A stretch of 64,000 nt of DNA from NCBI RefSeq assembly GCF_900187405.1, contig NZ_LT896716.1, positions 3,224,753 through 3,288,752 of the forward strand. The letters run 5' to 3'. The notes under the pieces were generated by a model, which saw only the letters and a program-made list of their open reading frames with translations, was not told the DNA's origin and made no database searches. The translations under genes and the position numbers were made by a program. Each line of letters begins with the position of its first letter. Within the stretch, counting starts at the first letter, position 1. The DNA comes from Geobacter sp. DSM 9736 (GTDB lineage: Bacteria; Desulfobacterota; Desulfuromonadia; Geobacterales; Geobacteraceae). This document shows, piece by piece, positions 2,691 to 25,325 of the stretch.

Positions 2691-2702
2691 CGATGCCTCA
2701 CC

Positions 2703-2927
2703 TTATTCCGGCTGACCTTCGATCAGTGCCCTTATATCGGAAACTTTCCACACGGTAATTTTGGGTCCTAATTTTTTGACGGGCTGCGGGTAACGGCCGG
2801 ATTTGACCCCGGCCCACCAGGTGCTCTTGGATACCGGAATGATAGGGGGGATGGGGGGATCGGCCTTGGGGTTGCCGATAATGGTGGACAGCCGGACAAA
2901 GCCGGTTTCCGGCAAGGTGGTGCGCAT
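2703..2927 (-). CDS. AlpA-family helix-turn-helix regulator / excisionase-like protein
   Basis: This small protein (74 residues) has the layout of AlpA/MerR-type DNA-binding proteins: a Ser-Lys-Ser-Thr-Trp-Trp segment, a GRYPQPVKKL wing and a C-terminal WKVSDIRALIEG helix. In P4-like and related elements such proteins activate the integrase or act as excision factors. A longer frame exists upstream, but the ATG at 2927-2925 is preceded by a clear GGAGGA site eight bases away, so I chose it. It lies between the integrase and the primase-like gene and is probably cotranscribed with the latter. Confidence 0.85.
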   Translation of the reverse strand: MRTTLPETGFVRLSTIIGNPKADPPIPPIIPVSKSTWWAGVKSGRYPQPVKKLGPKITVWKVSDIRALIEGQPE

Positions 2928-3336
2928 ACAATTTTCCTCCATAGGTTTTGGGGTGATGATTGACGACAGTTCGACAAGGGGAAACAATCCTGTCACTGGC
3001 AGGTTCCAAAGGAATGAGTGACGCAAAATGGTTGCGAGGTCTACTGTGAGAGTGACTGGATAGTATGAAACGAGGGAATTATCTCCACAGCCGATGGTAT
3101 GGCGGCTTGGCAGATAAACACGACTCGGTGGGGGCAAAAAAGGGGCGGGATGCATAGTATTGCGAAGTCTCATACGCTGGTCTCTTATCCCGCCATAACG
3201 GGCGAACTGATCCTGTATGAGACTTCATAATACTATTTCAGAGGAGGTGTCAAGATAAAAACTGTAATAATTTCAACATGATACAGCCAGAAACATTTGG
3301 AAACACTTTGAGCTTTTCACGGGGGGGATGCGTAAT
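2928..3336. other. Non-coding region between the AlpA-like gene and the integrase
   Basis: No convincing gene is visible in these 409 bases. The stretch carries the promoter region of the AlpA/primase operon and a long imperfect inverted repeat (listed separately). A second pair of short complementary arms (GCGGGAT at 3145-3151, ATCCCGC at 3187-3193) interleaves with it. Confidence 0.5.
3156..3234. repeat. 20-bp imperfect inverted repeat with 39-bp spacer
   Basis: The left arm at 3156-3175 and the right arm at 3215-3234 are reverse complements with two mismatches; the arms contain GAAGTCTCATAC and GTATGAGACTTC. The spacer is 39 bases. It lies upstream of the AlpA/primase operon and downstream of the integrase stop. 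It could be an operator, an origin or a protein-binding site for excision; no family is recognised. Confidence 0.75.
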
Positions 3337-4584
3337 TCATTTGGCGGCTGTCCGGTCGGAAATTCTGATGACTTTTGCTCCCGTCTTCAGTCCGTCAAGG
3401 TAATCGGCCCACTGCTGCATCATCTTTTTACGCTCTGTAAGGTGGGAGGTTCGGTTGTAGGCCCTTCCAAGTGGGTCACGAACGGAGTGACTGAGTTGGT
3501 GCTCGATCAGAACAACCGGCATGTGCAGCACTTCGTCAAGAATTGTTCGAGCTGATGCCCTGAACCCATGGGCAGTCGCTTCATCTTTTGTAAACCCCAT
3601 ACGGCGCAGTGCAGCATTGTAAGCATTATCGCTCATGCATCTGAGTGTTGAACGTTGGCAGGGGAAGAGATACTTGCCAAAGCCGGTGAGAGATTGCAGA
3701 GATTCCAGAATGGCTATAGCCTGTTTGGACAGTGGGACAATATGGGGCTGTTTCATTTTCATCCGAGTTGCCGGTATCTCCCAGATTGCTTTATCAAAAT
3801 CAAACTCCGTCCATTCGGCGGCCCTTAGTTCTCCAGGCCTGCAAAAAAACAAGGGAAGGAGTTGGAGAGCGCACTTGACGATATAGCTGCCCTCATAAGC
3901 ATCTATTGCCCTGAGAAGAGGTTGAAGGCTTTGCGGTGTTGTCGGGGCGGCGTGATGTCCATTCTTTACCGCCGGCAAAGCTCCTCTTAAATCGGCTGCG
4001 ATATCACGTTCAGCACGTTCAGTTACAACGGCATAGCGAAAGATCATTCCGCAATGGTGCCGCAGGCGATGAGCCGTGTCTAGTGCGCCGCGGCTGGCTA
4101 TTCGCTCCAGGACCTTGAGAAGATCCATCGGTTTTATTTCTGATATTGGGCGGGAGCCGAGCGGGGGAAAGATATCCTTTTCAAGCCGATGTAGAATATC
4201 GGCGGCATGGGTTGGTGACCACTTGCCGGCAGAAGAAAATTTCAGGTGCCATTGCCGGGCGATTACTTCAAACGTATTGGCGGCAATATCTTTATCGGTT
4301 GATTTAAGAGCTTTTTTCATCTCCCCCGGGTCAACGCCATTTGCCAGCAGTTTCTTTGCATCCTCTCGACGCTGCCTGGCTTCGGCGAGGGTTATGGAAG
4401 GATAAGCGCCAAAAGCCAGAACCTTGCGTTTGTCACCGTATCGGTAATCAAAGCGCCACAGTTTCCCGTTGGTAGGAGTTACGAGCAGAAAAAGCCCGAA
4501 GCCGTCCATGAGCTTGTAATCTTTTTCCTGCGGTTTTGCGTTCTTGACTTGAATATCAGAAAGTGGCGTGATCCTTTTGGGCAT
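3337..4584 (-). CDS. P4-type tyrosine recombinase (integrase)
   Basis: The 415-residue protein has the N-terminal arm-binding DUF4102 region (LSDIQVKNAKPQ, then GLFLLV, then a YP-S-L-ARQRREDA segment), a central SAM-like domain and a C-terminal catalytic domain. Visible catalytic signatures are CRPGELRAAEW (Arg), HGFRASARTIL (His-x-x-Arg) and the tyrosine in GRAYNRTSHL. It inserts the element by recombination at an att site. A longer frame reaches 4695, but the ATG at 4584 has a GGAG eight bases upstream and matches the usual family N-terminus. It sits next to the 3' end of tRNA-Phe, the usual target of this group, and reads away from it. Confidence 0.95.
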   Translation of the reverse strand: MPKRITPLSDIQVKNAKPQEKDYKLMDGFGLFLLVTPTNGKLWRFDYRYGDKRKVLAFGAYPSITLAEARQRREDAKKLLANGVDPGEMKKALKSTDKDIAANTFEVIARQWHLKFSSAGKWSPTHAADILHRLEKDIFPPLGSRPISEIKPMDLLKVLERIASRGALDTAHRLRHHCGMIFRYAVVTERAERDIAADLRGALPAVKNGHHAAPTTPQSLQPLLRAIDAYEGSYIVKCALQLLPLFFCRPGELRAAEWTEFDFDKAIWEIPATRMKMKQPHIVPLSKQAIAILESLQSLTGFGKYLFPCQRSTLRCMSDNAYNAALRRMGFTKDEATAHGFRASARTILDEVLHMPVVLIEHQLSHSVRDPLGRAYNRTSHLTERKKMMQQWADYLDGLKTGAKVIRISDRTAAK

Positions 4585-4595
4585 GGCTTTTCTCC

Positions 4596-4655
4596 GTTTT
4601 TGGAGGTATCCGTCTTGTTTTGGAGGTAAAACTACCCTATACATACCTCCAAAAC
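4596..4655. promoter_or_regulatory. Three copies of a GTTTTGGAGGTA box in the integrase promoter region
   Basis: Direct copies lie at 4596-4608 (with one extra T) and 4617-4628, and an inverted copy (TACCTCCAAAAC) at 4644-4655. The last two form a perfect 12-bp inverted repeat with a 15-base spacer. They cover the 60 bases just upstream of the integrase start and lie about 110 bases from the tRNA end. They are likely arm-type integrase or AlpA/excisionase sites, or an operator for integrase autoregulation. Confidence 0.65.
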
Positions 4656-4705
4656 TCTTGGATTCTGCCATACCACAAAGGACGAAATAAGACAATAGAT
4701 AAAGA

Positions 4706-4731
4706 AAAAGCCCCTATTTCTAGAGGCTTTT
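4706..4731 (-). terminator. Intrinsic terminator behind tRNA-Phe
   Basis: On the minus strand a stem AAAAGCC/GGCTTTT with a 12-base middle is followed by a T run (TTTTTC). It lies 33 bases past the tRNA 3' end and would end the tRNA transcript before the integrase gene. Confidence 0.7.
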
Positions 4732-4763
4732 CGTACCACGTCGGATGTGGTTGGACTTTCTAA

Positions 4764-4839
<76 letters not shown>

Positions 4840-5562: not shown

Positions 5563-5790
5563 ATGAAGATCGATACCGACTACATCAAGCTCGACAGTTT
5601 TCTTAAAATGGTCGATGTTGCGTCCTCGGGAGGGGAGGCAAAGGTCCTGATCGCCACGGGTGCTGTTCGCGTCAACGGTGCCGAAGAGAAAAGGCGCGGC
5701 CGCAAGCTCTATCCAGGGGACAGGGTGGATGCTGCCGGAGAAACTTTTCTCGTCGAAGGCCCATCGCATGGAGAAGCTGATGTGCCTTGA
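5563..5790 (+). CDS. S4-domain RNA-binding protein (YbcJ-like)
   Basis: This 75-residue protein is almost entirely an S4 RNA-binding domain. It has the pattern of an N-terminal FLKM helix, a GGEAKVLIATGAVRVNG core and a GRKLYPGDRV turn. Small free-standing S4 proteins of the YbcJ type are thought to bind ribosomal or other structured RNA; the target is unknown. The frame is open from 5521, but the ATG at 5563 has AGGAG five bases upstream and gives the normal family N-terminus. The end overlaps the next gene by 11 bases, so the two are probably translated together. Confidence 0.9.
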   Translation: MKIDTDYIKLDSFLKMVDVASSGGEAKVLIATGAVRVNGAEEKRRGRKLYPGDRVDAAGETFLVEGPSHGEADVP

Positions 5791-6490
5791 AGATATCAGC
5801 ATCGAGCTTGCCCACCGGCTGGATGAGTTGCGGTTCTCTTCTCCGGTGGCTTACGTCTACAACCCTCTGCTATATGCATGGCAGCCGCACCGGGAGTATC
5901 TGGTGCGGTTCGGCAGAGGGATAAAAGAAGCGGTATTCCTCGGGATGAATCCCGGTCCCTGGGGGATGACCCAGACGGGGGTGCCCTTCGGGGAAATTGC
6001 GGCTGTACGTGATTGGCTGAAGGTAGAGGGGGAGATCGGAAAGCCTTCTTCCGAACACCCGAAAAAGCGCGTGGTTGGGTTGAGTTGCCGCAGAAGCGAA
6101 GTGAGCGGGAGACGGCTCTGGGGGCTGATTCGCCAGCGATTCGGCTCTCCTGAGCCCTTCTTTGAGAGGTTTTTCGTCCTCAACTATTGCCCACTCCTCT
6201 TCCTCGATGAAGGGGGGCGTAACATCACCCCGGACAAGCTGCGCCCAGGGGAGCGGGACCTGCTTCTTGAGGCATGTGACCAGGCTCTTTTCCAAATGAT
6301 CGAGTGCCTGCGCCCGGCTCAGGTAATAGGTGTTGGAAATTTTGCCGCCGAACAGGCACGGAATGCTCTGCATGCGCTTCCTGTCAAGGTGGGAAAGATA
6401 CTTCACCCGAGTCCTTCAAATCCGCTGGCCAACCGTTGCTGGCCGGAAACCGTGCTGCGGCAGCTTCATGAACAGGAAGTAGACTTTTAA
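5780..6490 (+). CDS. Uracil-DNA glycosylase, SMUG1-like
   Basis: The protein carries SMUG1 hallmarks: GMNPGPWGM (about 55-63), a TGVPFG segment just after it, and HPSPSNP near the C-terminus. SMUG1-type enzymes remove uracil and oxidised pyrimidines from DNA as the first step of base-excision repair. The length (236 residues) fits. Two starts are possible, ATG 5768 and ATG 5780; the second has GGAG six bases upstream and is preferred. It overlaps the S4-protein gene by 11 bases and converges on the carbohydrate operon. Confidence 0.88.
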   Translation: MCLEDISIELAHRLDELRFSSPVAYVYNPLLYAWQPHREYLVRFGRGIKEAVFLGMNPGPWGMTQTGVPFGEIAAVRDWLKVEGEIGKPSSEHPKKRVVGLSCRRSEVSGRRLWGLIRQRFGSPEPFFERFFVLNYCPLLFLDEGGRNITPDKLRPGERDLLLEACDQALFQMIECLRPAQVIGVGNFAAEQARNALHALPVKVGKILHPSPSNPLANRCWPETVLRQLHEQEVDF

Positions 6491-6568: not shown

Positions 6569-7405
6569 TCAGCTTGTCAATCCATCAGGAGGTTGGATAG
6601 CGTCAGTCACGCATCCTTCTGACGCCGCCGCTGTTCCTGTCGCCGAAAGGTACTCTTCTTTGTTCCACGTGGTGACGCACGATGGCAACTGTGGGTTCGG
6701 CTCGCACAGATATATTTCATCTCCTGGATAGCCGATTATTCGCATGCCGGCAGATCGAAGGAGAGCTTCCACACCGGCGTGATTTAATATCCACCAGTTG
6801 GTGGGGTCCCCGGCAAAGCGGTCCTCGATGAACGCTGCTTTGGGCCAGCCAGGGTCGAGGAGGGTATCCCGCTCGTTTATCCAGTGGTCGGGCTGGAAGT
6901 AGATCTCTTTTCCCGGCATTGTGAGAGTCTGGAATACCATTAGCCGCTTTACCTTCCTGGCAACAATATCGAGCCCGAGGAGAGGGTAGCGCAAGTGGTA
7001 GAGCACTCCTAGAAAGAGGACCAGGTCGAATTCTACGGGATCCCGTGCCAGGTCGTATATCTGCATCTGCCGAAACCGGACGCGCTCTTCCACACCATAC
7101 TGTCGTGCTGCCCACGTCGCCTGGCGCAGATAGTGCGGGTCCACGTCTATCCCTGTTACCCGTGCTCCGCGGCGTGCGAGTTCGAAGGTGTAGAACCCGG
7201 CGTTGCAACCGATGTCTAGGGCATTCCACCCTGTCAGGTCCTCGGGAATAAATGGTGCGAGTTCCTTCCACTTGAACAGGGGGAAGTCTCCGAGGAAATG
7301 GTCCGGCGCGGTCTGCGTCCCATCGGGAAAATGAAGGTTGTGGAACCAGGGAGAAAGCGATGCGATCTCCTCGGGTCGTATTGTGCTTCCTTCAGCGTCA
7401 CCCAT
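6569..7405 (-). CDS. SAM-dependent methyltransferase (TIGR04290/Rta_06860-like)
   Basis: The protein (278 residues) has a class I methyltransferase fold: the SAM-binding motif ALDIGCNAGFYTFEL, the acidic end of strand 2 (GIDVDP) and a DLVLFLGVLYHL motif. It resembles the family I remember as TIGR04290, whose members lie next to CgeB-type glycosyltransferases. It is the last gene of a leftward operon, one base after the previous stop. The acceptor is unknown; by context a sugar hydroxyl of the glycan or glycoside made here, probably in the cytoplasm since no signal peptide is seen. The C-terminal 40 residues after LCEPNPQLPSC look unstructured. Confidence 0.82.
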   Translation of the reverse strand: MGDAEGSTIRPEEIASLSPWFHNLHFPDGTQTAPDHFLGDFPLFKWKELAPFIPEDLTGWNALDIGCNAGFYTFELARRGARVTGIDVDPHYLRQATWAARQYGVEERVRFRQMQIYDLARDPVEFDLVLFLGVLYHLRYPLLGLDIVARKVKRLMVFQTLTMPGKEIYFQPDHWINERDTLLDPGWPKAAFIEDRFAGDPTNWWILNHAGVEALLRSAGMRIIGYPGDEIYLCEPNPQLPSCVTTWNKEEYLSATGTAAASEGCVTDAIQPPDGLTS

Positions 7406-7406
7406 G

Positions 7407-8474
7407 CTACGCAGCCCCCATCGCTTCCGTTATGTATGTTTCCAGTTCTTCTGCGCGCTTTGCTGCGGTGTGCGATAGGAGTACGCGGCGTCTTGCCCGC
7501 TCCCCGATTTCCCGCCGCTCGTTCTCAGGCAGCCCCTGCAGGATTCGTAGGACCTCCCCGGAGTCTGAAGCGAGAAGGATTTCTTCGCCGGGATTGAAAA
7601 ACGTATCGATGCCTTCCCAGCGGTCGCTGATGACAGGGACTGCGCACGCCGCGGCTTCGAAAAGACGGACGCTGGGAGAGAACCCTGCTTTCACCATTTG
7701 CTTCCGGGTCACGTTGAGAGTGTACCTCTGACCGGTATAGAACTCTCCATGGTGGACCGGCGCGAGATGTTCCACTCGTTTGACGTTGTCAGGCCATCGG
7801 ATCGTACCGGGATATTGCGGGCCGGCTACGATGAAACGTCCTTCCTTCCAGGTGGCTGCCGGTTCATTGAGAAGACGATCCAGGGTCGGCTGCCTATCGG
7901 AGCTGTAAGTGCCGAGATATCCCAGATCCCAGGAATGGGTTTCTCCCGATGGACGATGAACGCTGGGATCGACCGAGCAGTAGAGGGGGCGGGCGCCAGG
8001 GGAGCCGTAATGCTCTTCTATGAAACGCAGGGTCGGGCCTCCGGTAAATGAGAGGTAGAGCCTGTAACGTGGGATAAGCTCCAGGTCCAGATAGTCGCAA
8101 TCATCCCGTTCCAGTTTGGCGAGTGTCACTGGAGTGTCGATGTCGTAGAAGGCAGTGAGTCCTTTTGCATGCCTGGTTATCCAGTGTCCCGCTTCGATTC
8201 CTTCGGGGACGTAGGAACCGACAATCACGCAATCCGCCTCCCTGATTTCCTTCCCATGTTCAGCAAAAAGATGGTCGAGTGAGGTGTACAGGATCGTCCG
8301 GCAGTAAGGTGGTTCCGGGAGGTCGCGGTTGGCTGAATACCACGGGGCGTCGCGTTCGAAGAAGACCACGTCGTGCCCCCGTTGTGCCATTTCCCGCAAC
8401 AGCCCCCGATAGGTGGTGGCATGACCGTTGCCCCAAGACGATGTGATAGAAAGTCCCAAGACTGCAAGTTTCAT
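7407..8474 (-). CDS. CgeB-family glycosyltransferase (third of three tandem copies)
   Basis: A GT-B type glycosyltransferase of 355 residues. The N-terminus MKLAVLGLSITSSWGNGHA forms the acceptor half, and the C-terminal half has the Glyco_trans_1_2 signature SPSVRLFEAAACAVPVISD with the sugar-nucleotide-binding Glu. CgeB is named after a Bacillus spore-maturation protein; substrates are not known for this branch. The start overlaps the preceding stop as ATGA (8474-8471), so translation is coupled. It shares N-terminal and C-terminal motifs with its two upstream neighbours, which suggests tandem duplication followed by divergence. Confidence 0.87.
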   Translation of the reverse strand: MKLAVLGLSITSSWGNGHATTYRGLLREMAQRGHDVVFFERDAPWYSANRDLPEPPYCRTILYTSLDHLFAEHGKEIREADCVIVGSYVPEGIEAGHWITRHAKGLTAFYDIDTPVTLAKLERDDCDYLDLELIPRYRLYLSFTGGPTLRFIEEHYGSPGARPLYCSVDPSVHRPSGETHSWDLGYLGTYSSDRQPTLDRLLNEPAATWKEGRFIVAGPQYPGTIRWPDNVKRVEHLAPVHHGEFYTGQRYTLNVTRKQMVKAGFSPSVRLFEAAACAVPVISDRWEGIDTFFNPGEEILLASDSGEVLRILQGLPENERREIGERARRRVLLSHTAAKRAEELETYITEAMGAA

Positions 8475-9571
8475 CCTGCCACCCCCCTGCGGCATGTCGA
8501 TGTGTCGGAGCAGAATATCTCCCCGAACTGCCGTGCCCGGTGACGATATGTATGTTCCCTCCTCACCCTCGCGAATGCCCTCATGCCGACAGCAGCCGCC
8601 TCCTTCTCGGTCAGTTTCTCAAGTATTGCGGCGACTTCATCACCGTTTCCGGCGACAAGAATTTCTTTTCCCGGCTCGAAGAAGTTATCGACGCCGTCCC
8701 ATGCATCCGTGATAATGCAGGCTCCCGCTCCTGCCGCCTCGAATACGCGTGTGGCAGGTGAGAACCCGTAGCTCGCCATGCTTGCACGGCTTATGTTGAG
8801 GATGGCCAGTGCACTGCAATTGAAGGCGTTGTGATCCCCTGTTCCCAGGTGCCCGAGCCACGTTGTGTTGGCGGGGCGGGGCTTGTCTCCCCAGCCGCTT
8901 CCCGCGAAGAGAAACGAGCGATGCGGGAGACGGTGCGCAACGGAAAGAAAGAACTCATCCACACGGGTTTCGCGGTCGGGCAGGCGGTTTCCGAGAAAGG
9001 CAAGGTCGGTCCGGAAGCGCTGCTGCGGCGGGACCGGGAAGTGGGTGTCCGGATCGAGGGCGTTGTATATAGGGATGCATTCCCGGGCTCCGAATGACAG
9101 GTATCGCTCGACCACCGGCCAACCGCCTCCATACGTCAGAATCAGGTCGTAGGCGGGAATGAGGCGGTGAAAAGGATCAGACGGATCGGCAGCGACCCTT
9201 TCAAGGGTTGCCGGTGCGTCCACGTCCCAGAAAACCACCTGCGTGGTTTCCTTCTTGAGCATGAGGACTTCCCGCTCCAGGAATTCGTCGAATACCCCCA
9301 CGCCGCTAGCCTTGACAACCAGATCGGCATCGGCGGCACGTTCCAGGCATTGAGCCGCCGCCTCCTCTGTAGCGGGGTAAACGACCACCGTTGCCCATTC
9401 GGGATTTTCCATGTCGCGGTTCGCCTGCCGGTCGTAAGCATCCGGCTCGAAGAAGGTGACGTGGTGCCCCAGTTCGTGGAGAGCCTTGATGATTCCGCGA
9501 TAGTAGGTGGCTGCGCCGTTCCAGTAGGAGGAGACAAGGCTCGACCCGAAAAATGCTATTGTCAGTCCCAT
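8471..9571 (-). CDS. CgeB-family glycosyltransferase (second of three tandem copies)
   Basis: A 366-residue GT-B protein. The N-terminus GLTIAFFGSSLVSSYWNGAA parallels the neighbouring CgeB proteins, and the C-terminal signature is SPATRVFEAAGAGACIITD followed by WDGVDNFFEPGKEI. No signal peptide or membrane segment is visible, so it acts in the cytoplasm or at the inner face of the membrane. It starts three bases after the upstream stop and overlaps the downstream start by four bases. Donor and acceptor sugars cannot be read from the sequence. Confidence 0.87.
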   Translation of the reverse strand: MGLTIAFFGSSLVSSYWNGAATYYRGIIKALHELGHHVTFFEPDAYDRQANRDMENPEWATVVVYPATEEAAAQCLERAADADLVVKASGVGVFDEFLEREVLMLKKETTQVVFWDVDAPATLERVAADPSDPFHRLIPAYDLILTYGGGWPVVERYLSFGARECIPIYNALDPDTHFPVPPQQRFRTDLAFLGNRLPDRETRVDEFFLSVAHRLPHRSFLFAGSGWGDKPRPANTTWLGHLGTGDHNAFNCSALAILNISRASMASYGFSPATRVFEAAGAGACIITDAWDGVDNFFEPGKEILVAGNGDEVAAILEKLTEKEAAAVGMRAFARVRREHTYRHRARQFGEIFCSDTSTCRRGVAG

Positions 9572-9574
9572 CTC

Positions 9575-10705
9575 CTATCCCTTTCCGCGCAGTTGCTGCG
9601 GTCTTTCGGTGGTATCCATCCCGAGCTCGCGGCATATCTGCAGTAGTTCGTTCACCCGGTGCCCGCAGGTGTGGCGCTCGATGATGGTTCTCCTGCCGTG
9701 GCTCGCAAGTTCCTCAGCGCGTGTCGGATGATGAAGCAGCATGTCCAGCAGTTCTGTTGCCTCGTTTCCGTTGCGGGCTACGAGAAAGTCCTCACCCGGG
9801 GCGAACAGCCCCTCGACGTCATGCCACGGGGCCGACACGAGAGGAATCCCGCAGGATAATGCCTCGAAGGGGCGAATGGTCGGAATCCCCGGGAGCAGAG
9901 TCGCATAGGGGCGACGCGGTATATGAACCGTGACGCGGTGGCGGCTGAAGACCTTCGGTACGTCGAAATTCGGAAGCCACCCTCCGTAGCGGATGCCGGC
10001 CTCCTCCAGCAGCCGGAGCGCCTGCTGCGGATAGCGCACACCATATACCGTCGCCTTAAGTCTAAGGCGCCGCACAGGTTCTATCAGGAACTCCCGGATC
10101 TCCTCGCTCCGTTCCTCGTCACCCCAGTTGCCGACCCAGACGACATCCCCTTCCGGTTCTACAGAAGATTGCGGCGAGAATACGCGAACATCCGCCGCTT
10201 CATGCCATACCCATACATTTTTTGCCCAGCGGGATTTCAGGTAGATATCCCGGATTTTTTTTCCGTAGGCCAGAACGCCGTCGTAGTGGCTGAGATCATA
10301 GGCTGACATCGATTTCGCTTCGGTGACCGACCGGTGGTGGGTGTCGTGGAAAAAAAGGAGGTAACCCCCCTTTTTTCGGTGATGCTCCCCAAGCCTCCGG
10401 ACAAGTTCGTGGTCGTTCCATTCATGGACGATCACTACGTCGGCGCCAGCCAGTAAGCGGTCCGGATCGATCCTGTCCATCCGGTATGTCTTGCCTTCGA
10501 GGAGCGGGTATGTCCTGCGGAACTGGCGGATGGCAATTTCCCCCTGCTCCCGCAACAGATTGGTAAGGCTCCACCCAGCCTCTGGTTCATAGACGTCCAC
10601 ATGATGGCCCCTGGAGATCAACTCGCTCGCGATGCCTCTCAAAAAGTGGGCATTGCCGTGATTCCAGTCGGAGACGATGGAGTGATAGAAGAGCACGAAT
10701 TTCAT
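9575..10705 (-). CDS. CgeB-family glycosyltransferase (first of three tandem copies)
   Basis: A 376-residue GT-B protein beginning MKFVLFYHSIVSDWNHGNAH. The C-terminal half has IRPFEALSCGIPLVSAPWHD and GLFAPGEDFLVARNG, the same pattern as the two following genes, though it is the most diverged of the three. As with other CgeB-like proteins the activity is inferred from the fold, not known. It is preceded by the GT4 gene 66 bases away and followed after three bases by the second CgeB gene. Confidence 0.86.
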   Translation of the reverse strand: MKFVLFYHSIVSDWNHGNAHFLRGIASELISRGHHVDVYEPEAGWSLTNLLREQGEIAIRQFRRTYPLLEGKTYRMDRIDPDRLLAGADVVIVHEWNDHELVRRLGEHHRKKGGYLLFFHDTHHRSVTEAKSMSAYDLSHYDGVLAYGKKIRDIYLKSRWAKNVWVWHEAADVRVFSPQSSVEPEGDVVWVGNWGDEERSEEIREFLIEPVRRLRLKATVYGVRYPQQALRLLEEAGIRYGGWLPNFDVPKVFSRHRVTVHIPRRPYATLLPGIPTIRPFEALSCGIPLVSAPWHDVEGLFAPGEDFLVARNGNEATELLDMLLHHPTRAEELASHGRRTIIERHTCGHRVNELLQICRELGMDTTERPQQLRGKG

Positions 10706-10771
10706 CGATTACCTTTCCGCCGGGTACTTCATCCCGGCATGCCGCCTCTGCGGAGTCTGCAGGAGCTCCCT

Positions 10772-11941
10772 TCAGGCTCTGGCTACCGCGGGTGCGGGCG
10801 CAGCTTTTAGCATAGGTGCCGGATGAAGCGACAGGTAGGCGTCCATGTACTGTGCCGCCATTCGGTCGAGGCTGAAGGACATGCTCCGTTCATATGCTTC
10901 GCCTGCCAGCCGCTCCCGATAAAAGTGATCGGTGCAGAGTTCCTGTAGAGCGTTCTTAAGGGCCTCTGTGTCGTCGGGGGGAACGAAGACCGCCGCACCT
11001 TCCCACAGCTCCCGAAGGGAGGGGATGTCCCCCAGCACCAGAGCACAACGGGACATGGCCGCTTCAAGTATCGAAAGCCCGAAGGGTTCGTACTTTGCGG
11101 GGTGAGCATAGATACCCGCCCGCTCCAACCAAGCGGCCAGCTCCCATGGAGCGATTTTGCCGAGCCGGCTGACATTGCCGACGATAAGCGTTCCCCCTTC
11201 CGGATGCTTCTCCTCTCCGGCGATGTATACCGGCCAGGCCAGATTTGCCGCGGCCCTGGCAACGCTTCCCACATTCTTCGCCTCGTCCCAGATCCGTCCG
11301 ACGCAGAGGATGAACTCTTCCTTTCTTCCCGGCTTGAAGAGCTTGCGGTTGCGGGCGTTGTGGATCACCCGTCCCTTGGGAAGCGGGAGATAGTGCTTTT
11401 CGAGGGCACCCAGCATGGCCCGGGTAGGTGTCACCACAAGCGAAGCGGCGGAAAGGCCCTTGCGCACCCTCTCCCGATAAACGTGATAGGAGGCGGGAAG
11501 TTGCTTTTTGCGCACCGATTCCCACCAGGACAGGACACAGGAGTGCCCTGCGACCAGACAGGGCGCCCGCCAGGGAAGAGCCGCATGCACGTACCCGTTG
11601 AGGTGTACGACATCGGGGCTGAAAGTATCCTCCAGCGACAGGAGCCATTCCCCGGCTCGCTCGATGTCTTCCCATGGGTCGTCCATCCATTCGAGACGGT
11701 GGGCGCTGTCGTGCAGCACCAGATTGCGCACCCGCCGCGCTTCACGCCGCTGCTCCGAGTTGGGTGCTCCACCCATGGTGGCCAGCAGCACCTCTATGCC
11801 GTACCGTGCAAGTCCCTGAGCCACTTCGAGGGCATAGGTCCAGACGCCTCCGACGGTATCGGCGGTCATGAGAACTCTGCGCGGGACTGAAGGGACGCTT
11901 ATCGAATAAAGATCCGAAAGGGCCTGCTGCGAATGTTCCAT
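10772..11941 (-). CDS. GT4-family glycosyltransferase
   Basis: This 389-residue retaining GT-B enzyme has a glycine-rich N-terminal strand-loop (MTADTVGGVWTYALEVAQGL), typical of glycogen- or sucrose-synthase-like GT4 proteins. The donor-binding motif is KYEPFGLSILEAAMSRCALV with its E-x7-E pair. It transfers a sugar from a nucleotide donor; the substrate is unknown. The frame is open to 12067, but ATG 11941 has AGGAG six bases upstream and starts near the conserved domain. It belongs to the leftward operon and precedes the three CgeB genes. Confidence 0.87.
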   Translation of the reverse strand: MEHSQQALSDLYSISVPSVPRRVLMTADTVGGVWTYALEVAQGLARYGIEVLLATMGGAPNSEQRREARRVRNLVLHDSAHRLEWMDDPWEDIERAGEWLLSLEDTFSPDVVHLNGYVHAALPWRAPCLVAGHSCVLSWWESVRKKQLPASYHVYRERVRKGLSAASLVVTPTRAMLGALEKHYLPLPKGRVIHNARNRKLFKPGRKEEFILCVGRIWDEAKNVGSVARAAANLAWPVYIAGEEKHPEGGTLIVGNVSRLGKIAPWELAAWLERAGIYAHPAKYEPFGLSILEAAMSRCALVLGDIPSLRELWEGAAVFVPPDDTEALKNALQELCTDHFYRERLAGEAYERSMSFSLDRMAAQYMDAYLSLHPAPMLKAAPAPAVARA

Positions 11942-12063
11942 ATGTGCTCCTGAAAGTGGGACTGCACGAGGCCGGTCACCGATGCATGCTGCCCTCGTCC
12001 GGCCGATGTGCCGGCGGAAAACGGAAAGGTCGTTTCGCAATTTCTGACGATGGAGCCGGCTGT

Positions 12064-13155
12064 TCAACCCAGCGCGGCGATGCTTCGTTCCCCCTGATCA
12101 CCTGCCCGGCTTATCTCCCTGCACTCACTCTCGGCCGGAAAGCTGGTATCCCTGCCGTACGCGGCGTCGAGGGCAAGCGCGGTGTCGAGGAGGCGTTCCG
12201 CATCAGGGTCGAATCTGCACCCGGTACGGAGTCTTACTGCCCAGGCGACGGCTGCCCTTCCACCCCAGTCGTCCGGCGGCGCCGCCAGTTGCTGGCAGCT
12301 GGTGCCCTGGAAGCGTTCGGCGGTGAAGTCGTAGAATGAGCCATTCACGTTGCGGAAGCAGGCTCCTCCTTCGGTGCCGTAAAAGGTGGAACTGATGACG
12401 GCATCCCGGCCGGCGGGCAGGTTCCAGGAGCATGCGAGGCGGATTATCGCGCCATTTTCCAGTACGAAAGAGACATCGGCGAAATCCTCCACTGCTCCCG
12501 TTACATTCTCCAGAAGCTTCCCCTTGGCGTATATGGAGCGCGAAACGGTTCGTATGTTGGGGAAGTCGAAGACCCAGAGCCCAAGATCGACCAGATGGCT
12601 TCCCAGGTCCATGAGGCAGCCCCCGCCCGATAGTTCCGGATCGTAAAACCAAGACTTGTCGGGGCCGTAGGCGTTATGGAAGACCAGGTCTGCGCTGTAA
12701 AGCTCTCCCAGTTCGCCTCTTCTGACAAGATCGTGGATTTTACGGATGCCTTCGGTGAAACGGTAGGAGTAATCAACGGCCAGGAGCCGGTCTGCACGAC
12801 GCGCAGCCGTCACCACCGCTGCCGTTTCCGCTGCATTTCGAGCGAGGGGTTTCTGGCAGAAAACCGCCATTCCCCGCTCCAGCGCACGTATCGACTGCTC
12901 GGCGTGACCCGCGCTCGGAGTGGCAATCACAATGCCGTCGAGATCCATATCGAGGAGCTCATCATAGGAACCGGCAATGATAGCGCCCGGAGCGGCGGCT
13001 GCGGCCGCTTCGGCGTTCCCGGCGCTGATATCCGCAATCGCTGCTACTTCCGCTTCTCCCGACGCTGCTATGGCTTCCATCCTGTGCCGGCCGATCCACC
13101 CCGTCCCGAGAAACCCCAATCTTGGGAGGCTCCTGTTTCTTGCGGCTATTTTCAC
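12064..13155 (-). CDS. Gfo/Idh/MocA-family oxidoreductase
   Basis: The N-terminal Rossmann domain has LGFLGTGWIGRHRMEAI. A catalytic-type EKP analogue is present as FCQKPLARNAAET, with Lys in the usual place, and a GGG-x-LMDLGSHLVDL segment marks the C-terminal substrate domain. These enzymes oxidise or reduce sugar hydroxyls with NAD(P). The start is taken as GTG 13155 because AAGGAG lies five bases upstream; an upstream ATG at 13191 lacks a good site. Its place among glycosyltransferases and epimerases suggests a nucleotide-sugar or inositol-type substrate. Confidence 0.88.
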   Translation of the reverse strand: MKIAARNRSLPRLGFLGTGWIGRHRMEAIAASGEAEVAAIADISAGNAEAAAAAAPGAIIAGSYDELLDMDLDGIVIATPSAGHAEQSIRALERGMAVFCQKPLARNAAETAAVVTAARRADRLLAVDYSYRFTEGIRKIHDLVRRGELGELYSADLVFHNAYGPDKSWFYDPELSGGGCLMDLGSHLVDLGLWVFDFPNIRTVSRSIYAKGKLLENVTGAVEDFADVSFVLENGAIIRLACSWNLPAGRDAVISSTFYGTEGGACFRNVNGSFYDFTAERFQGTSCQQLAAPPDDWGGRAAVAWAVRLRTGCRFDPDAERLLDTALALDAAYGRDTSFPAESECREISRAGDQGERSIAALG

Positions 13156-13199
13156 GTCGTCTCCTTGGTTACAGTAGGATGTTGTGTGCAATAGGGGGC

Positions 13200-14159
13200 C
13201 TACGGGTGGATGCTGACAATGCCTTTTATGAACCCTTCCGGTCGTTCGGTCAGCATTGCATACGCTTCATTGAGGCTGTCCAGCCCGAAACTGTGTGTGA
13301 CGAGACCTTCCAGGTCGAACGCTCTTCCGGCAGCCGCTTCGACGCCCGCGGCGATGCCTTCCACATAAATTCTAGCTTCGCGCTCGTGAGCGTTTATGAC
13401 GTCCAGCCCCTTCCAGTTCCACTGCTGCATGTTCACTTGCCGGGGCCCGTCCTGATGGTAGCCCGCAATCACCATGCGCCCCCTCTCTTTCACCAGTTCA
13501 CCCGAGAGGTCCAAAGGCCACTGGTGCCCCGTCGCTTCCACAACCACATCGCAACCCGCGGGGCCCGCAAGCTCTTTCATCTTTTCGATCACTCGCCAAT
13601 GGTCGTCCATTGAAACTGCTTCGGCTGCACCATACGAAAGGGCAAGGTCGAGGGGGTGCTGCCGGCGGGACAGGGCGATGACACGTGCGCCTGCACGTGA
13701 GGCAAGGGCAGTGAATATGATGCCCAGAAAACCCGCTCCTACGACGGCGACTGTGTCCCCGGCACGAATGGCGCTGCGGCGAAAGACGTTGACGGCGCAC
13801 CCGACTGCTTCGCCGGGAAAGGGAAGACCTTCGAGTTCCGCCGGCAGCTTGACGGCTGCTTCGGCGGTAATAGTGTCGTACTCTGCGTAAGCATGGTCCG
13901 ACAGGAAAGTAACCCTGTCTCCTTCGGCAAAGCCGGCCACACCCTTGCCTACAGCGCAAACGCGTCCCCATCCCTCATGCCCCGGGGTGCCGGGAGGAAT
14001 CGGATAATTGAACCACGGCCTTCCTTCCCATAGTGGGAGGTTGGAAGGGCACACTCCGCACCCTTCCACCCGTATCAGGAGTTCACCCGCTTTAGGATCC
14101 TGCAGTGGGGATTCCCGCACTTCGACCTTTCCGGGTGACGTAATGACTGCCGCCTGCAT
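13200..14159 (-). CDS. Zinc-binding MDR dehydrogenase (short form)
   Basis: A 319-residue medium-chain dehydrogenase. The catalytic-zinc ligands are visible as GCGVCPSNLPLW and PGTPGHEGWG, and the nucleotide-binding motif is VAVVGAGFLGIIFTALA. The four-cysteine structural zinc loop of classical alcohol dehydrogenases is absent, as in shorter sorbitol- or threonine-dehydrogenase relatives. The start is ATG 14159; the frame is open further upstream but overlaps the preceding gene. It follows that gene by eight bases. Substrate unknown; a sugar alcohol or an aminosugar is plausible from context. Confidence 0.87.
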   Translation of the reverse strand: MQAAVITSPGKVEVRESPLQDPKAGELLIRVEGCGVCPSNLPLWEGRPWFNYPIPPGTPGHEGWGRVCAVGKGVAGFAEGDRVTFLSDHAYAEYDTITAEAAVKLPAELEGLPFPGEAVGCAVNVFRRSAIRAGDTVAVVGAGFLGIIFTALASRAGARVIALSRRQHPLDLALSYGAAEAVSMDDHWRVIEKMKELAGPAGCDVVVEATGHQWPLDLSGELVKERGRMVIAGYHQDGPRQVNMQQWNWKGLDVINAHEREARIYVEGIAAGVEAAAGRAFDLEGLVTHSFGLDSLNEAYAMLTERPEGFIKGIVSIHP

Positions 14160-14167
14160 CGTTCGCT

Positions 14168-16246
14168 TCACCTTATCGCCTCCATGACCGAAGATAGGTA
14201 TTTTTCCTCCTGATACCAGGCAGCAGGACTCGATTGCCGGGGCAGATTGAGCATGGAAGCGAGCCACTGGTATAGCTTGGCTACCCCCTCTTCGACCGAG
14301 AAGCGGGGTGTCCATCCGGCAGCCTCCCTGAACTTGCGTGTATCGGAGACATAGTAGCGCTGGTCGCCGGTCCGCCATTCCCCGTACCTGATCTGGGGCA
14401 GGGTTCCGTTCAACTTCTGGAGCAGCTGCAACAGCTCCACGAGGCTTACCGATCGCTCGGGGCCGCCGCCGATGTTGAATGCCTGCCCCGAGATTCTCGG
14501 CATGATCTGCCGGGCACGTTCAAGCGCATCGACCAAGTCCTCCACGAAGAGGATGTCACGGACCTGGCACCCGTCGCCATAGAGGGTTATAGGACAACTG
14601 CAGAGGGTGCGGATGGCAAAATGCGCCACCCAGCCCTGATCCTCCGTGCCGAACTGATGTGGTCCATAGATGCAGCTCATCCTGAAAACCGCCGTACTGA
14701 GTCCGTAGCTACGGGAATAGTCCAGGACATACTGATCCACCGATCCCTTCGAGCAGCCGTAGGGGCTGAGGAAGTCGAGGGGAAGCTGTTCGTGGAGGCC
14801 GTTTTTGCGCAGGGATGTTTCAACCGGCTCGTACCGGTAGCTGTTACGTTCTACCGCTACGTCGGCTATGCCGCCGTACACTTTGTTAGTTGATGTGTAG
14901 AGTAAGGATGGAGGTTCTGCTGCCTTCCTGATTGTTTCCAAAAGGCCGAATGTGCCGGACGCATTTATCTCGAAATCCATTGAAGGATTGTCGACACTGG
15001 TAGTAACGGCGACTTGGGCAGCGAAGTGGTAGACATGCTTCGATTCAGCGACGGCCTGTTCGAGAAGCTGAGTATTCCTGATATCCGCGATCCTGATATC
15101 GAGCTGGTCGCCGTACTTGTCGTGCAGCCAGAGGAGGTTTTTCTCCACTCCCGGACGTGACAGGTTGTCATACACGATCACCCGCTCCCCTTCCGCGAGA
15201 AGCCTGTCTACTACATTGGTTCCGATAAATCCTGCGCCGCCGGTAACCAGGACGGCCTTTTCCGGAGAGGGCCTGCGCTTCCCGCTGCCCGCTATCGCAT
15301 CGAGTGCCCGTACCCCCTCGACTCCTCCATGTTCCAGAAGGCGGAAGAGGAGTTTCGGCACTCCGTCGGCTTTCCGGAGACCGAAGTAATATTCCCTTTC
15401 GTCAAGGTGAAACCGGTCTACGGCGGCCAGGGCAGGGTCAAGATCGTCGATCCCGTACCAGTAAATCCTGGTCGCGGGAGCTTCCAGAAATTCCAGGAAC
15501 ACCCGCATCTGCTTCCGCTCATCGTGCTGCCAGGTGGAAAATCCTGCTTCTGTCACCCAAATCTCGCAGGAACTGTTGCGCTCCCGCAGGACTTCGTGCG
15601 TCAGGGCGATCGTTCGCTCCCATCCCTTCCAGGTGTAGTCGAAAATGTCGGGGAAACCGTGAATCCCTACGACGTCGATGTGGTCCATCACACCGAGTTC
15701 GAACATCCGCGAGAGCCACTGCCCATCCACGGGGCTCATCCCCCCAAGCACCGTCTTTTTACCTCGTTGACGTGCCCAGTAAGCCGCGCCTCCGATCATC
15801 TCTCCGAATTTCGTCCAATGAACATCCAGCGTCCAGTCCCATTCGCTCAGGTTGTTCGGCTCGTTCCAGAGCTCGATGTAGTCGAAGTGTTCGCCGAACC
15901 GGCTGATAAGGATGTCCACGAAGTCTGCGTAGTCCTGAAGCCGACGTGGAGGAGCGGAAGTTTTGTTTTCCTCCCCGATCGATGGAGGTGTGTATAGAAC
16001 GCATGGCAGAAACTCCACCTGGGCCGCTATTCGCGGAATCAGCCACTCGTACCATTTTTCGCCGCTTCTGCCGTGCCAGTCGGCCCAGGATATTCCGGTT
16101 CTCAGCCGACGCACGCCGATCTTCTTGAGGTCGGCCAGCACCCGGTCCACACGTGCATATTCTCCCGGGCGGAACCATTCAACGATCCCGCAATGGTCGG
16201 GAAGTTTCTGTACCGCAGGACGTATCTTCAGCTGTTCGGCGCTCAT
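14168..16246 (-). CDS. Fusion: glycoside-hydrolase-like TIM barrel + NAD-dependent sugar-nucleotide epimerase (SDR)
   Basis: The 692-residue protein joins two enzymes. Residues 1-310 form a clan-A glycosidase-type barrel with acid/base Glu129 (WNEP) and nucleophile Glu233 (WVTEAGF). Residues 330-690 form an extended SDR with GGAGFIG (336-342) and a Y496-x3-K500 pair, closest in feel to CDP-paratose 2-epimerase or UDP-glucose epimerase-like proteins. Both active sites appear intact. No signal peptide is seen, so the hydrolase half is cytoplasmic. The start ATG overlaps the upstream stop as ATGA (16246-16243). The combination suggests coupling of glycan trimming to sugar-nucleotide conversion; the exact substrates are unknown. 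Confidence 0.87.
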   Translation of the reverse strand: MSAEQLKIRPAVQKLPDHCGIVEWFRPGEYARVDRVLADLKKIGVRRLRTGISWADWHGRSGEKWYEWLIPRIAAQVEFLPCVLYTPPSIGEENKTSAPPRRLQDYADFVDILISRFGEHFDYIELWNEPNNLSEWDWTLDVHWTKFGEMIGGAAYWARQRGKKTVLGGMSPVDGQWLSRMFELGVMDHIDVVGIHGFPDIFDYTWKGWERTIALTHEVLRERNSSCEIWVTEAGFSTWQHDERKQMRVFLEFLEAPATRIYWYGIDDLDPALAAVDRFHLDEREYYFGLRKADGVPKLLFRLLEHGGVEGVRALDAIAGSGKRRPSPEKAVLVTGGAGFIGTNVVDRLLAEGERVIVYDNLSRPGVEKNLLWLHDKYGDQLDIRIADIRNTQLLEQAVAESKHVYHFAAQVAVTTSVDNPSMDFEINASGTFGLLETIRKAAEPPSLLYTSTNKVYGGIADVAVERNSYRYEPVETSLRKNGLHEQLPLDFLSPYGCSKGSVDQYVLDYSRSYGLSTAVFRMSCIYGPHQFGTEDQGWVAHFAIRTLCSCPITLYGDGCQVRDILFVEDLVDALERARQIMPRISGQAFNIGGGPERSVSLVELLQLLQKLNGTLPQIRYGEWRTGDQRYYVSDTRKFREAAGWTPRFSVEEGVAKLYQWLASMLNLPRQSSPAAWYQEEKYLSSVMEAIR

Positions 16247-17361
16247 AGTGTCAACCCCCGGGCGGAAAGTTCGGCATGTGCTTTCGTGACATAATCGACC
16301 GCTATCTGTTCTGTCAGCCAACCCGCCAGATCCACCAGCCCTTCCTCCAGGGAAATCTTGGGTTGATACCCGAGGAGCTCGCGAGCTGCTGCAATATCTG
16401 CGAAGCAGTGCCGTATGTCCCCCGTCCGGTAGCTCCCGGTGATGCAGGGTTCGATATCTTCACGGTTCAGCAGCCTGGCGAGCCTCCGGGAGACCTCATT
16501 CACCGTGTGGCTCGTCCCGCTGCCGATATTGAGGACCCGTCCGTCGGCCCGGTCATTTTCAAGTGCAAGCCGGCAGGCCTTCGCGACATCGTGGACGCTC
16601 ACGAAGTCCCGCTGCTGAAGGCCGTCTTCGAAAATACGCGGGCTGTTCCCGTTCAGAAGCCTCGACGCGAAGATAGCCAGGACACCTGTGTAAGGGTTCG
16701 ATAGCGCCTGGCGCGTTCCGTAGACGTTGAAGAAACGGAGAGCAACGACGGGAATGCGATAGGCGCTCCCCACGATGAGACTCATGACCTCCTGGTCATA
16801 CTTGGAAAGCGCATATACCGAAGCGAGGGAAGGGACCTTGCTTTCCGGGGTCGGCAAGGGAGCGAGCGGTTGCCGTTTGTCATCGTAAAGCTCCCATACG
16901 CCGTCACGCAGTTGGGACAGGGGCCGTTGGAGTCCCTGCCTGATCTCTCCCCGGCTGTCCCGGTAGAGACCTTCCCCGTATATGCTCATGCTGGAGGCGA
17001 CCACAAGCTTCGCGCATCCTGCTGCCGCCACCGCTTCCAGGAGGACCGCGGTTCCATGATTATTGACCGAGGTATACTTTTCGATCTCGTACATGCTCTG
17101 GCCTACCCCTACCAGGGCTGCAAAATGGTAGACGGCGTCGATTCCCCGGAGCGCCTTCTTCACTGTTTCAGGATCCCGCACGTCCCCCTTGACCAGCTCG
17201 ACTTCCGGGTCCAGGTAGGCGGGGCGCTTCCCGTTCGGGCCGTGCACCTGCGGCACGAGTGAGTCCAGAGCCCGGACGCGGTAGCCGTGCCGGAGCAGTT
17301 CGTCCGCAAGGTGCGATCCTATGAAGCCCGCTCCACCCGTGATCAGCACGCTACAAGCCAT
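16243..17361 (-). CDS. NAD-dependent epimerase/dehydratase (extended SDR)
   Basis: A 372-residue sugar-nucleotide SDR with ITGGAGFIGSHLADELL at the N-terminus, a VASSMSIYGEG serine segment, and SVYALSKYDQE carrying the Tyr-x3-Lys pair. The C-terminal GTSHTVNEV and RTGDIRHC segments are typical of dTDP-rhamnose or UDP-sugar 4-epimerase-like enzymes. It is the first gene of the leftward operon, with a strong promoter about 150 bases upstream, and it overlaps the next gene by four bases. The precise nucleotide sugar cannot be told from sequence. Confidence 0.88.
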   Translation of the reverse strand: MACSVLITGGAGFIGSHLADELLRHGYRVRALDSLVPQVHGPNGKRPAYLDPEVELVKGDVRDPETVKKALRGIDAVYHFAALVGVGQSMYEIEKYTSVNNHGTAVLLEAVAAAGCAKLVVASSMSIYGEGLYRDSRGEIRQGLQRPLSQLRDGVWELYDDKRQPLAPLPTPESKVPSLASVYALSKYDQEVMSLIVGSAYRIPVVALRFFNVYGTRQALSNPYTGVLAIFASRLLNGNSPRIFEDGLQQRDFVSVHDVAKACRLALENDRADGRVLNIGSGTSHTVNEVSRRLARLLNREDIEPCITGSYRTGDIRHCFADIAAARELLGYQPKISLEEGLVDLAGWLTEQIAVDYVTKAHAELSARGLTL

Positions 17362-17511: not shown

Positions 17512-17539
17512 ATTTTAGCAGGGGGTATAGGGCTGTCAA
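17512..17539 (-). promoter_or_regulatory. Sigma-70 type promoter of the glycosyltransferase operon
   Basis: On the minus strand TTGACA (17539-17534) and TAAAAT (17517-17512) are separated by 16 bases. This is the best promoter match upstream of the leftward operon. Transcription would start near 17505, giving a leader of about 145 bases. Confidence 0.75.
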
Positions 17540-21282: not shown

Positions 21283-22263
21283 CTACCTGCGGGTCAGCTT
21301 TTGTTCCCAGCGCCACGCATCGGCTACGATAGTTCGCAGGTCGTCGAACTTCGGCTGCCAATGCAGCACACTCCGGGCCCTGTCGGCTTTGGCCACCAGG
21401 ATAGCCGGATCTCCTTCACGCCGAGCTGATTCCTTTACGGTAAAATCTACGCCGCTAACTTCCTTTACAATCCCGATAACTTCACGCACGCTCGCGCCAC
21501 GTCCGTAACCGACGTTGATGACCGATGTCTCTCCACCTTTATTCAGGTAGTCGAGGGCGGCAAGGTGGGCGGAGGCGAGATCCTCCACATGAATGTAATC
21601 TCGGATGCAGGTGCCGTCGGGGGTCGGGTAGTCGGTGCCGAAGATGTCCATGTGGGGGCGCATTCCGAGGGCTGCCTGACACGCTACCTTGATCAGATGT
21701 GTTGCCTCTGGGGTACGCTGCCCCATACGCGCCTCCCGATCTGCCCCTGCCACATTGAAGTAGCGAAGCGCCACGTAGGGGAGTGAGTGCGCACGGGAGG
21801 TCTCACGAAGCATATACTCGCTCATCAACTTGGACAGCCCGTATGGGTTGATGGGAAGTGTCGGACTGTCTTCCGAGGCGATTCCCCCCTCGGGCAAACC
21901 GTACACAGCCGCCGTGCTGGAAAAGATGAACCGCTCCACCCGGTGTTTTACGGCAGCCCTCAGCAGGTTGAGGGTCTTGCAGGTATTGTTGCCGAAGTAC
22001 TTGAGTGGATCGGAAACCGATTCAGGAGCAACGATGGAGGCGGCAAAGTGAAGAACCGTCCTGCAGCCGTACTCGCCGAAAACCTTGTCCAGCTTCTCCG
22101 CATCTCCCACATCTCCAGTCACGAGGCGCTCCCCGTGTACGAGGGCATCGGCGAATCCTGTGGAAAGATTGTCGTAGACGATGACTTCGTGTCCTGCTTC
22201 AGACAATTGTCGCACCACATGGCTTCCAATGTAGCCGCAACCTCCGGTTACGAGTATCGGCAT
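21283..22263 (-). CDS. galE: UDP-glucose 4-epimerase
   Basis: A 326-residue extended SDR with GGCGYIGSH (7-15), FSSTAAVYG serine segment and catalytic Tyr141-x3-Lys145 (NPYGLSKLM). The substrate-binding region reads RYFNVAGAD and the end is typical of GalE. It interconverts UDP-glucose and UDP-galactose, closing the Leloir pathway with galT and galK found further on. The start ATG 22263 has AGGAGA seven bases upstream; an upstream extension of 25 codons is not conserved-looking. It is divergent from the glycosyltransferase-mutase fusion gene. Confidence 0.95.
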   Translation of the reverse strand: MPILVTGGCGYIGSHVVRQLSEAGHEVIVYDNLSTGFADALVHGERLVTGDVGDAEKLDKVFGEYGCRTVLHFAASIVAPESVSDPLKYFGNNTCKTLNLLRAAVKHRVERFIFSSTAAVYGLPEGGIASEDSPTLPINPYGLSKLMSEYMLRETSRAHSLPYVALRYFNVAGADREARMGQRTPEATHLIKVACQAALGMRPHMDIFGTDYPTPDGTCIRDYIHVEDLASAHLAALDYLNKGGETSVINVGYGRGASVREVIGIVKEVSGVDFTVKESARREGDPAILVAKADRARSVLHWQPKFDDLRTIVADAWRWEQKLTRR

Positions 22264-22655
22264 GGCGTCTCTCCTGTCAACATGGGCTTTTGCAGCATAT
22301 CCAGCCTTCGGCGGGATTTTCTCCGGTAAGAGTAGCATGCTCCCCGGTATTCCTCAATATCTGACTCGTCCAGCTTGATGGCTTGGGCTGCCCGGGGAGC
22401 ACGACCGGCAGCAGTGCAGCGCTCTTCACCTGCCGCGTTTTTCGCTTCGGCCCCCGAGCTTTCTTTTAACCATTCGTGTGTTAAAATTTTTTGGAAGTCT
22501 TCTCCAGTGCAGTTCCAGTTGGCGATCTCATTTACGGAGAAACGCCCGTCCATTTAGTCGCAAAAGAACATCGGGTTTTCAAATCCCAGCTGAAATTTGC
22601 ATATGGAACAGCATCCGAAGCGACACGAAACCGAGCCGCCGAAGGAGACAACTCT
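22264..22655. other. Divergent promoter region of galE and the GT-mutase fusion
   Basis: The region holds the two ribosome-binding sites, an inverted repeat at 22464-22486, and no gene I can support. A 101-codon minus-strand frame across it was rejected. Confidence 0.45.
22464..22486. promoter_or_regulatory. Inverted repeat TTTTAAC-N9-GTTAAAA, candidate operator
   Basis: Perfect 7-bp arms lie at 22464-22470 and 22480-22486 in the AT-rich centre of the divergent galE/fusion-gene intergenic region. The layout fits a dimeric repressor site that could govern both directions. No regulator gene is adjacent. Confidence 0.45.
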
Positions 22656-25232: not shown

Positions 25233-25291
25233 CCTGGAGCAACGGCGCACACTGAGAACGATTTTCGTGAGGCTCCAAACTGAGAAAGAGG

Positions 25292-25325
25292 AAAAGACTT
25301 CCCGGCATGTCGCGGGAGGTCTTTT
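25292..25325. terminator. Bidirectional intrinsic terminator between convergent genes
   Basis: A 13-bp stem with one G-U type mismatch (25292-25304 with 25313-25325) encloses an 8-base loop and has A and T tracts on both sides (CTTTTCTTTG on plus, GTCTTTTCCTC on minus). It lies between the convergent fusion genes. Confidence 0.8.

Follow-up and report, generated by a model that had tools for sequence, protein, structure and literature searches.

What product would call for two nucleotide-sugar epimerases, a redox pair, four glycosyltransferases and a methyltransferase in one operon, with no export gene visible beside them? The question is raised by nine genes (g1-g9) of Geobacter sp. DSM 9736, a member of the Geobacteraceae whose genome is a single contig of 3.96 Mb, within a stretch of 64,000 nucleotides that was analysed as a whole and is referred to here as the window. 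A sequence-only reading had described these genes as a glycosylation-methylation operon behind a strong promoter, making a short, modified and methylated sugar chain or glycoside in the cytoplasm.

The nine-gene operon

All nine open reading frames proved intact and lie where they were first listed, on the minus strand from 17361 down to 6569 (Table 1), and Pfam and NCBIfam agreed with the families that the sequence-only reading had named. While the reading frames are real, three of the listed starts are too early: most likely so for g2, where the start given in Table 1 creates a 4-base ATGA overlap with g1; likely so for g3, where the later start falls 8 bases past the end of g2; and likely so for g5, which would start near 11941. 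The proposed promoter was confirmed as a pattern, with 11 of 12 matches and an extended -10; it is the top-scoring site within 13 kb, and four further genera of Geobacteraceae (five in all) have a TTTGACA-16/17-TG(C/T)TA-type site ahead of g1. A terminator-like stem parts the operon from the hemerythrin-like gene upstream.

Table 1. Genes and boundary elements of the operon (positions in the window)
Feature	Position	Strand	Assignment	Basis or remark
g1	16243..17361	-	Extended SDR nucleotide-sugar epimerase (GalE/TviC/WbpP-like), 372 aa	Pfam/NCBIfam; orthologue first in complete cassettes
g2	14168..16246	-	GH39/PslG-like domain (residues ~1-320) fused to SDR nearest CDP-tyvelose 2-epimerase	Start most likely; listed ORF start 16321
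g3	13200..14159	-	MDR dehydrogenase (zinc-type alcohol dehydrogenase family)	Start likely; listed ORF 13200-14378
g4	12064..13191	-	Gfo/Idh/MocA oxidoreductase	Nearest solved relatives named DgpA
g5	10772..12067	-	GT4 family glycosyltransferase	Listed ORF; Pfam/NCBIfam
g6	9575..10705	-	CgeB-type glycosyltransferase 1	PF13524; own orthologous line across phyla
g7	8471..9571	-	CgeB-type glycosyltransferase 2	PF13524; own orthologous line across phyla
g8	7407..8495	-	CgeB-type glycosyltransferase 3	PF13524
g9	6569..7405	-	SAM-dependent methyltransferase TIGR04290, last gene	NCBIfam, 337.7 bits
Sigma-70-like promoter	17512..17539	-	TTGACA-16-TAAAAT, extended -10 (TGC)	~150-180 bases before g1
Intrinsic-terminator-like stem-loop	17700..17726	-	Upstream operon boundary	After hemerythrin-like gene

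The C-terminus of g2 is nearest the CDP-tyvelose 2-epimerases, with which it has the STNKVYG and SPYGCSKG motifs in common and whose solved members scored ~297-299 bits (9rl0) and ~275-277 bits (1orr), as against at most 136 bits for other solved SDRs; a 2-epimerisation activity is predicted on this ground. The N-terminus was modelled as a GH-A barrel with a pLDDT of 91.9, and its best fold match was PslG (E 2.3e-17), with GH39 beta-xylosidases also among the matches. By sequence profile, the same region gave no Pfam GH match up to E 0.001 and reached PDB sequences only at E 0.14. The predicted catalytic glutamates of this domain, E129 and E233, are invariant in 35 aligned sequences, its alphaproteobacterial homologues are annotated as beta-xylosidases, and no signal peptide was seen on it. 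In many lineages g2 occurs without the GH domain, often with a related GH gene nearby, and some cassettes hold no detected GH domain at all.

The NCBIfam matches of g5 (MshA, IagA/BgsA, GlcN-PG synthase) were weak and all far under their cut-offs, and those of g3, g4 and g5 include inositol enzymes, again weak and generic. PF13524 scored 128-131 bits on g6-g8, and the model of g8 has a GT-B fold nearest to sucrose-phosphate synthase (SPS), BshA and MshA, with an MMP mannosyltransferase also among the nearest folds. The three CgeB lines are retained as separate orthologues in most cassettes, implying three fixed linkages. The g9 score lies above the curated TIGR04290 cut-off of 300; TIGR04290 and TIGR04295, a family that fills the g3/g4 slot in some relatives, are both 'hypothetical equivalogs' of NCBIfam without a product. 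Literature searches on TIGR04290 and on CgeB gene clusters with desiccation found no paper in the library covered, and a search of viral contigs returned distant methyltransferases only. A second, divergent pair of CgeB and TIGR04290 genes in Ramlibacter alkalitolerans (L127:11654-14406; 44% identical to g8 and 46% to g9) hints at a wider family of such clusters.

Several other features of the window were noted on either side of the operon. A uracil-DNA-glycosylase superfamily gene (5660-6490) is convergent with g9; it has no close homologue in the other cassette loci, and on a plasmid of Agrobacterium fabrum, too, the methyltransferase is followed by a UdgX-family gene. Further on, a tyrosine integrase by tRNA-Phe and a Toprim/DUF3631 primase-like gene (327-4839) form the probable edge of an integrated element. 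On the other side lies an adjacent sugar locus (21283-32816) encoding an SDR epimerase, a GT4 fused to an amine-oxidase/UGM-like domain, a GH1-RmlD protein, galactokinase, an M24 peptidase, GalT and GH2. The GH1-RmlD gene (25420-27714) is a second cytoplasmic glycosidase-SDR fusion, GH1-like plus RmlD, and its full-length form occurs in 11 of 22 cassette-bearing versus none of 26 cassette-free Geobacteraceae genomes, as well as in several cassette genomes of other phyla.

Conservation, spread and neighbourhood of the cassette

The sequence-only reading had stated that CgeB proteins co-occur with TIGR04290-like methyltransferases. When one genome per species (84,980) was scanned with a methyltransferase alignment, 317 relatives were found, of which the best 80 were kept with their flanks and searched with the nine window proteins. 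The co-occurrence held, and the conserved core turned out to be larger than had been noted, comprising all nine genes. The exact order g1-g9 on one strand was present in 49 of these best 80 loci, most of the others being cut by contig ends, and was kept over six phyla (Thermodesulfobacteriota, Bacteroidota, Pseudomonadota, Gemmatimonadota, Actinomycetota and Verrucomicrobiota); parts of the cassette also occur in Acidobacteriota, Planctomycetota, Armatimonadota, Cyanobacteriota and Chloroflexota, making eleven phyla in all. Because the same order recurs so widely and dN/dS lies between 0.02 and 0.24 across all nine genes, which is the mark of purifying selection, the nine-gene set is not a product of chance.

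Among Geobacteraceae, the methyltransferase is found in 22 of 48 species and five of 14 genera. Simple vertical inheritance was ruled out by comparison with RecA (28 genomes; RecA was not extracted for two). Between phyla the median identities are 62% for the cassette versus 59.5% for RecA, whereas within phyla RecA averages 80% and the cassette proteins 53-70%; as cassette similarity does not track that of RecA (Spearman 0.03), the block has spread horizontally. In a concatenated cassette tree most loci grouped by phylum, with Acidobacteriota, Pseudomonadota and Gemmatimonadota split, and transfer between phyla is therefore mostly old. The methyltransferase is also found on plasmids (133 records, mostly from Sinorhizobium, Rhizobium, Roseomonas, Paracoccus and Azospirillum). 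The first genes are gone from two Geomonas copies (L024, L025); the copy of Geomonas diazotrophica (L025/L009) has lost g1-g3 and most of g4 and carries internal deletions in g6 and g7, and is either a decaying cassette or an assembly fault.

The absence of export and lipid-linked initiator genes from the operon, as first described, was borne out. No O-antigen or capsule flippase, polymerase or exporter was found in the operon or among the window ORFs scanned with Pfam (a part of all ORFs), and no Pfam match to a lipid-linked initiating transferase was found in the operon. A conserved association with such genes in relatives had been named as the finding that would point to an ordinary capsule or O-antigen. 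Across ~70 loci no Wzx, Wzy, ABC or initiator gene is conserved beside the cassette, which speaks against either. Accessory genes excepted (UXS, Ino1, a phosphatase and others, described below), flanking genes are not common to phyla, and apparently conserved neighbours are mostly lineage-specific, the exception being an additional SDR gene that precedes g1 both in Bacteroidota and in a single gammaproteobacterial MAG. By a simple hydropathy count, only 23 ORFs with five or more predicted membrane segments were found in 71 loci (638 kb, mostly downstream flank), and the upstream flanks of 23 loci and six Geobacteraceae loci added few more polytopic ORFs. Those scanned with Pfam differ from one another: two are amino-acid permeases, and the rest comprise a sodium symporter, an MFS protein and a single ABC exporter. 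Likewise, the annotated clusters of Sinorhizobium, Paracoccus, Roseomonas, Rhizobium and Xanthomonas hold no polysaccharide export gene.

Gene replacement, accessory genes and stress-type promoter motifs

The redox pair is replaced in some cassettes. DgpA, the nearest solved relative of g4, catalyses C3 oxidation of a glycoside. Neither g3 nor g4 is present in the cassettes of one acidobacterium, a Bradyrhizobium plasmid and a cyanobacterium; there a TIGR04295 B12 radical-SAM gene stands before g5, as it does in a truncated acidobacterial locus. Across the loci, g3 and g4 occur together in 68 (a count that includes some overlapping fetches of one genome), g3 occurs alone in four, and in none are g3/g4 accompanied by TIGR04295. 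We infer that the pair and the TIGR04295 enzyme carry out the same modification step. A comparable interchange is known from aminocyclitol pathways, where the radical-SAM enzyme BtrN, which is not a B12 enzyme, and a Zn/NAD dehydrogenase alternate at one step. The name "B12_rSAM_oligo" of the family occupying the g3/g4 slot suggests that the NCBI curators, who had probably noticed the cluster, suspected oligosaccharide synthesis. Two cassettes are without g3, g4 and the radical-SAM enzyme altogether and, since others hold no detected GH domain, the product is not identical everywhere.

Alphaproteobacterial clusters, which sit on pSymB and other plasmids, encode orthologues of g1-g9 that are mostly 47-63% identical to those of the window (34-44% for g5). 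To these they add a UDP-glucuronate decarboxylase-like protein (UDP-xylose synthase, UXS) and, in most clusters, inositol-3-phosphate synthase (Ino1), a histidine phosphatase, a separate GH39-like gene and an unknown protein. Beta-, gamma-, acidobacterial, gemmatimonad or verrucomicrobial loci variously have UXS, Ino1, the phosphatase and the unknown protein close to the cassette, and Ino1 is found with the phosphatase in alpha, beta and verrucomicrobial loci and in one Desulfuromonadales locus. As a marker of the cassette UXS was discarded for the Geobacteraceae, where homologues in 44 of 48 species, with or without the cassette, make it uninformative. Another recurrent neighbour, found in loci from alpha, beta, gemmatimonad and Chloroflexi members, is a 582-aa protein without a Pfam or NCBIfam match (L142:2001-3749). 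In a Bradyrhizobium cluster the methyltransferase is flanked by genes for a nucleotidyltransferase and a phosphopentomutase-like protein (L180:13198-16911). A literature search on the Sinorhizobium meliloti cluster, with locus tags guessed from position, gave as its sole match a sugar-binding protein that probably lies outside the cluster.

The rhizobial clusters also offer a clue to regulation. The general-stress (EcfG) promoter motif of rhizobia is GGAAC-N16-CGTT (PMC3892343), and a relaxed form (GGAAC-N16-19-GTT) precedes g1 in every one of the 10 Rhizobiaceae clusters examined; in nine of them it lies 55-68 bases from where g1 is estimated to start. All ten also have it ahead of the divergent g3(/g4) unit, and the six with an Ino1 unit have it ahead of that unit too. 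By chance the relaxed motif occurs in 7% of 350-base stretches, and shuffled upstream regions averaged 0.19 of 10, although the ten clusters are related to one another and so are not ten independent trials. The finding is limited to Rhizobiaceae: the motif was not found upstream of g1 in the Paracoccus and Roseomonas clusters, and the promoter of the window's operon is sigma-70-like. In S. meliloti 1021 general-stress promoter motifs precede the cluster, which lies on pSymB with its methyltransferase at 242427-243197. An mshA-like glycosyltransferase and a galE1, either of which may be a cluster gene, are named in a salt-tolerance GWAS of that species (PMC12855168).

The proposed product and its rivals

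Our preferred reading, to which we give about an even chance, is that this mobile block directs the synthesis of a single soluble, methylated oligosaccharide or glycoside of fixed structure, which is built in the cytoplasm and stays there to protect the cell under stress; we infer the product, its acceptor, the order of steps, its cytoplasmic fate and its protective role. UDP-sugars, including UDP-xylose from a decarboxylase encoded in the cluster or elsewhere, would be converted by g1 and the 2-epimerase-like g2; g5 would attach the first sugar to a small soluble acceptor, and the distinct CgeB-type transferases g6-g8 would add one residue each. The g3 and g4 enzymes may oxidise and then re-reduce one hydroxyl, a step that the B12 radical-SAM enzyme would take over in some lineages, g9 would methylate the product, and the GH39-like domain could trim, transglycosylate or recycle it. 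The short, modified and methylated chain first proposed fits all of these findings, its cytoplasmic location and glycosidic nature being putative. The desiccation, heat and osmotic survival that the sequence-only reading singled out for testing gain weight as candidates from the general-stress promoters of rhizobia. Counting against a protectant, several cassette hosts are sediment or paddy-soil anaerobes that are not obviously desiccation-prone.

Two kinds of known system resemble such a product. Soluble stress glycosides (glucosylglycerate, mannosylglucosylglycerate, glucosylglycerol and trehalose systems) are likewise made by small soluble transferases without an exporter and under stress regulation, for which the cassette offers a motif in rhizobia only; however, these systems need two or three genes, whereas the cassette has nine, of which four encode transferases, two epimerases, two the redox pair and one a methyltransferase. 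The mycobacterial MGLP and MMP are also cytoplasmic methylated sugar chains, and the fold of the CgeB model recalls the MMP mannosyltransferase, but no operon orthology was seen, and the cassette differs in its wide phylum range, its epimerases and its Gfo/Idh pair. More tentatively, we suggest that the product, a methylated pseudo-oligosaccharide of near-constant structure over eleven phyla, represents an as yet undescribed class of stress protectants inside the cell; it would be encoded by a mobile nine-gene operon whose order survives horizontal transfer and in which an NAD-dependent and a B12 radical-SAM step are interchangeable.

The main rival, which we consider unlikely, is that the cassette supplies a component of LPS or of a surface polysaccharide, with export left to generic, unlinked machinery; an unlinked flippase or ABC exporter may indeed serve the product. 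In favour of this, the GH domain folds most like PslG, a component of an exopolysaccharide system, a pyruvyl transferase lies near the Paracoccus and S. meliloti clusters, and many cassette hosts make abundant EPS. Psl and Wzx/Wzy or ABC loci also share with the cassette a GH39-like fold, sugar-nucleotide enzymes and transferases, yet the cassette lacks their flippase, polymerase, ABC exporter and lipid-linked initiator, none of which is conserved in the ~70 loci, and its GH domain, unlike PslG, is fused to an epimerase and has no visible signal peptide. Moreover, its enzymes are 50-65% identical across phyla, Actinomycetota and Chloroflexota loci included, unlike strain-variable surface glycans.

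That inositol is the core acceptor everywhere, and the product a glycosylated inositol, is improbable. The positions of Ino1 and its phosphatase near the cassette, the stress motif that Ino1 shares in Rhizobiaceae and the inositol enzymes among the family matches of g3, g4 and g5 favour it, but those matches are weak and generic, and Ino1 was found in none of the 22 cassette-bearing Geobacteraceae, the window's genome included, and in 14 of 24 genomes of a wider sample (absent from 10). Inositol is therefore not a general acceptor, and for the window's genome is contradicted, unless it is imported. It is still more doubtful that the cassette builds a glycolipid head group, with the GT4 starting on a membrane lipid and the CgeB enzymes extending it: the matches of g5 to lipid GT4s (IagA/BgsA, GlcN-PG synthase) that would favour it all fall far under cut-offs, no lipid-synthesis gene is linked, and the CgeB model folds nearest to enzymes with soluble acceptors. 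Least probable is direct glycosylation of a protein in the cytoplasm (flagellin-, pilin- or crust-like O-glycosylation), for although the transferases are soluble and would need no exporter, and CgeB, whose PF13524 domain they share, is associated with spore-surface glycosylation (cgeAB of Bacillus subtilis), no conserved acceptor protein lies by the cassette across phyla, alpha clusters instead bring inositol and UDP-xylose supply genes, and three CgeB paralogues stand in one conserved operon without a sporulation context, in hosts that are mostly non-sporulating and have no common flagellar or spore system.

The gene content of sugar clusters commonly differs between strains. That this cassette keeps its nine-gene order over six phyla points to one product of use to many kinds of cell. 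The role of that product can be tested directly in laboratory strains such as S. meliloti 1021 and, if it is indeed a general stress solute, it would belong to a previously unknown class.
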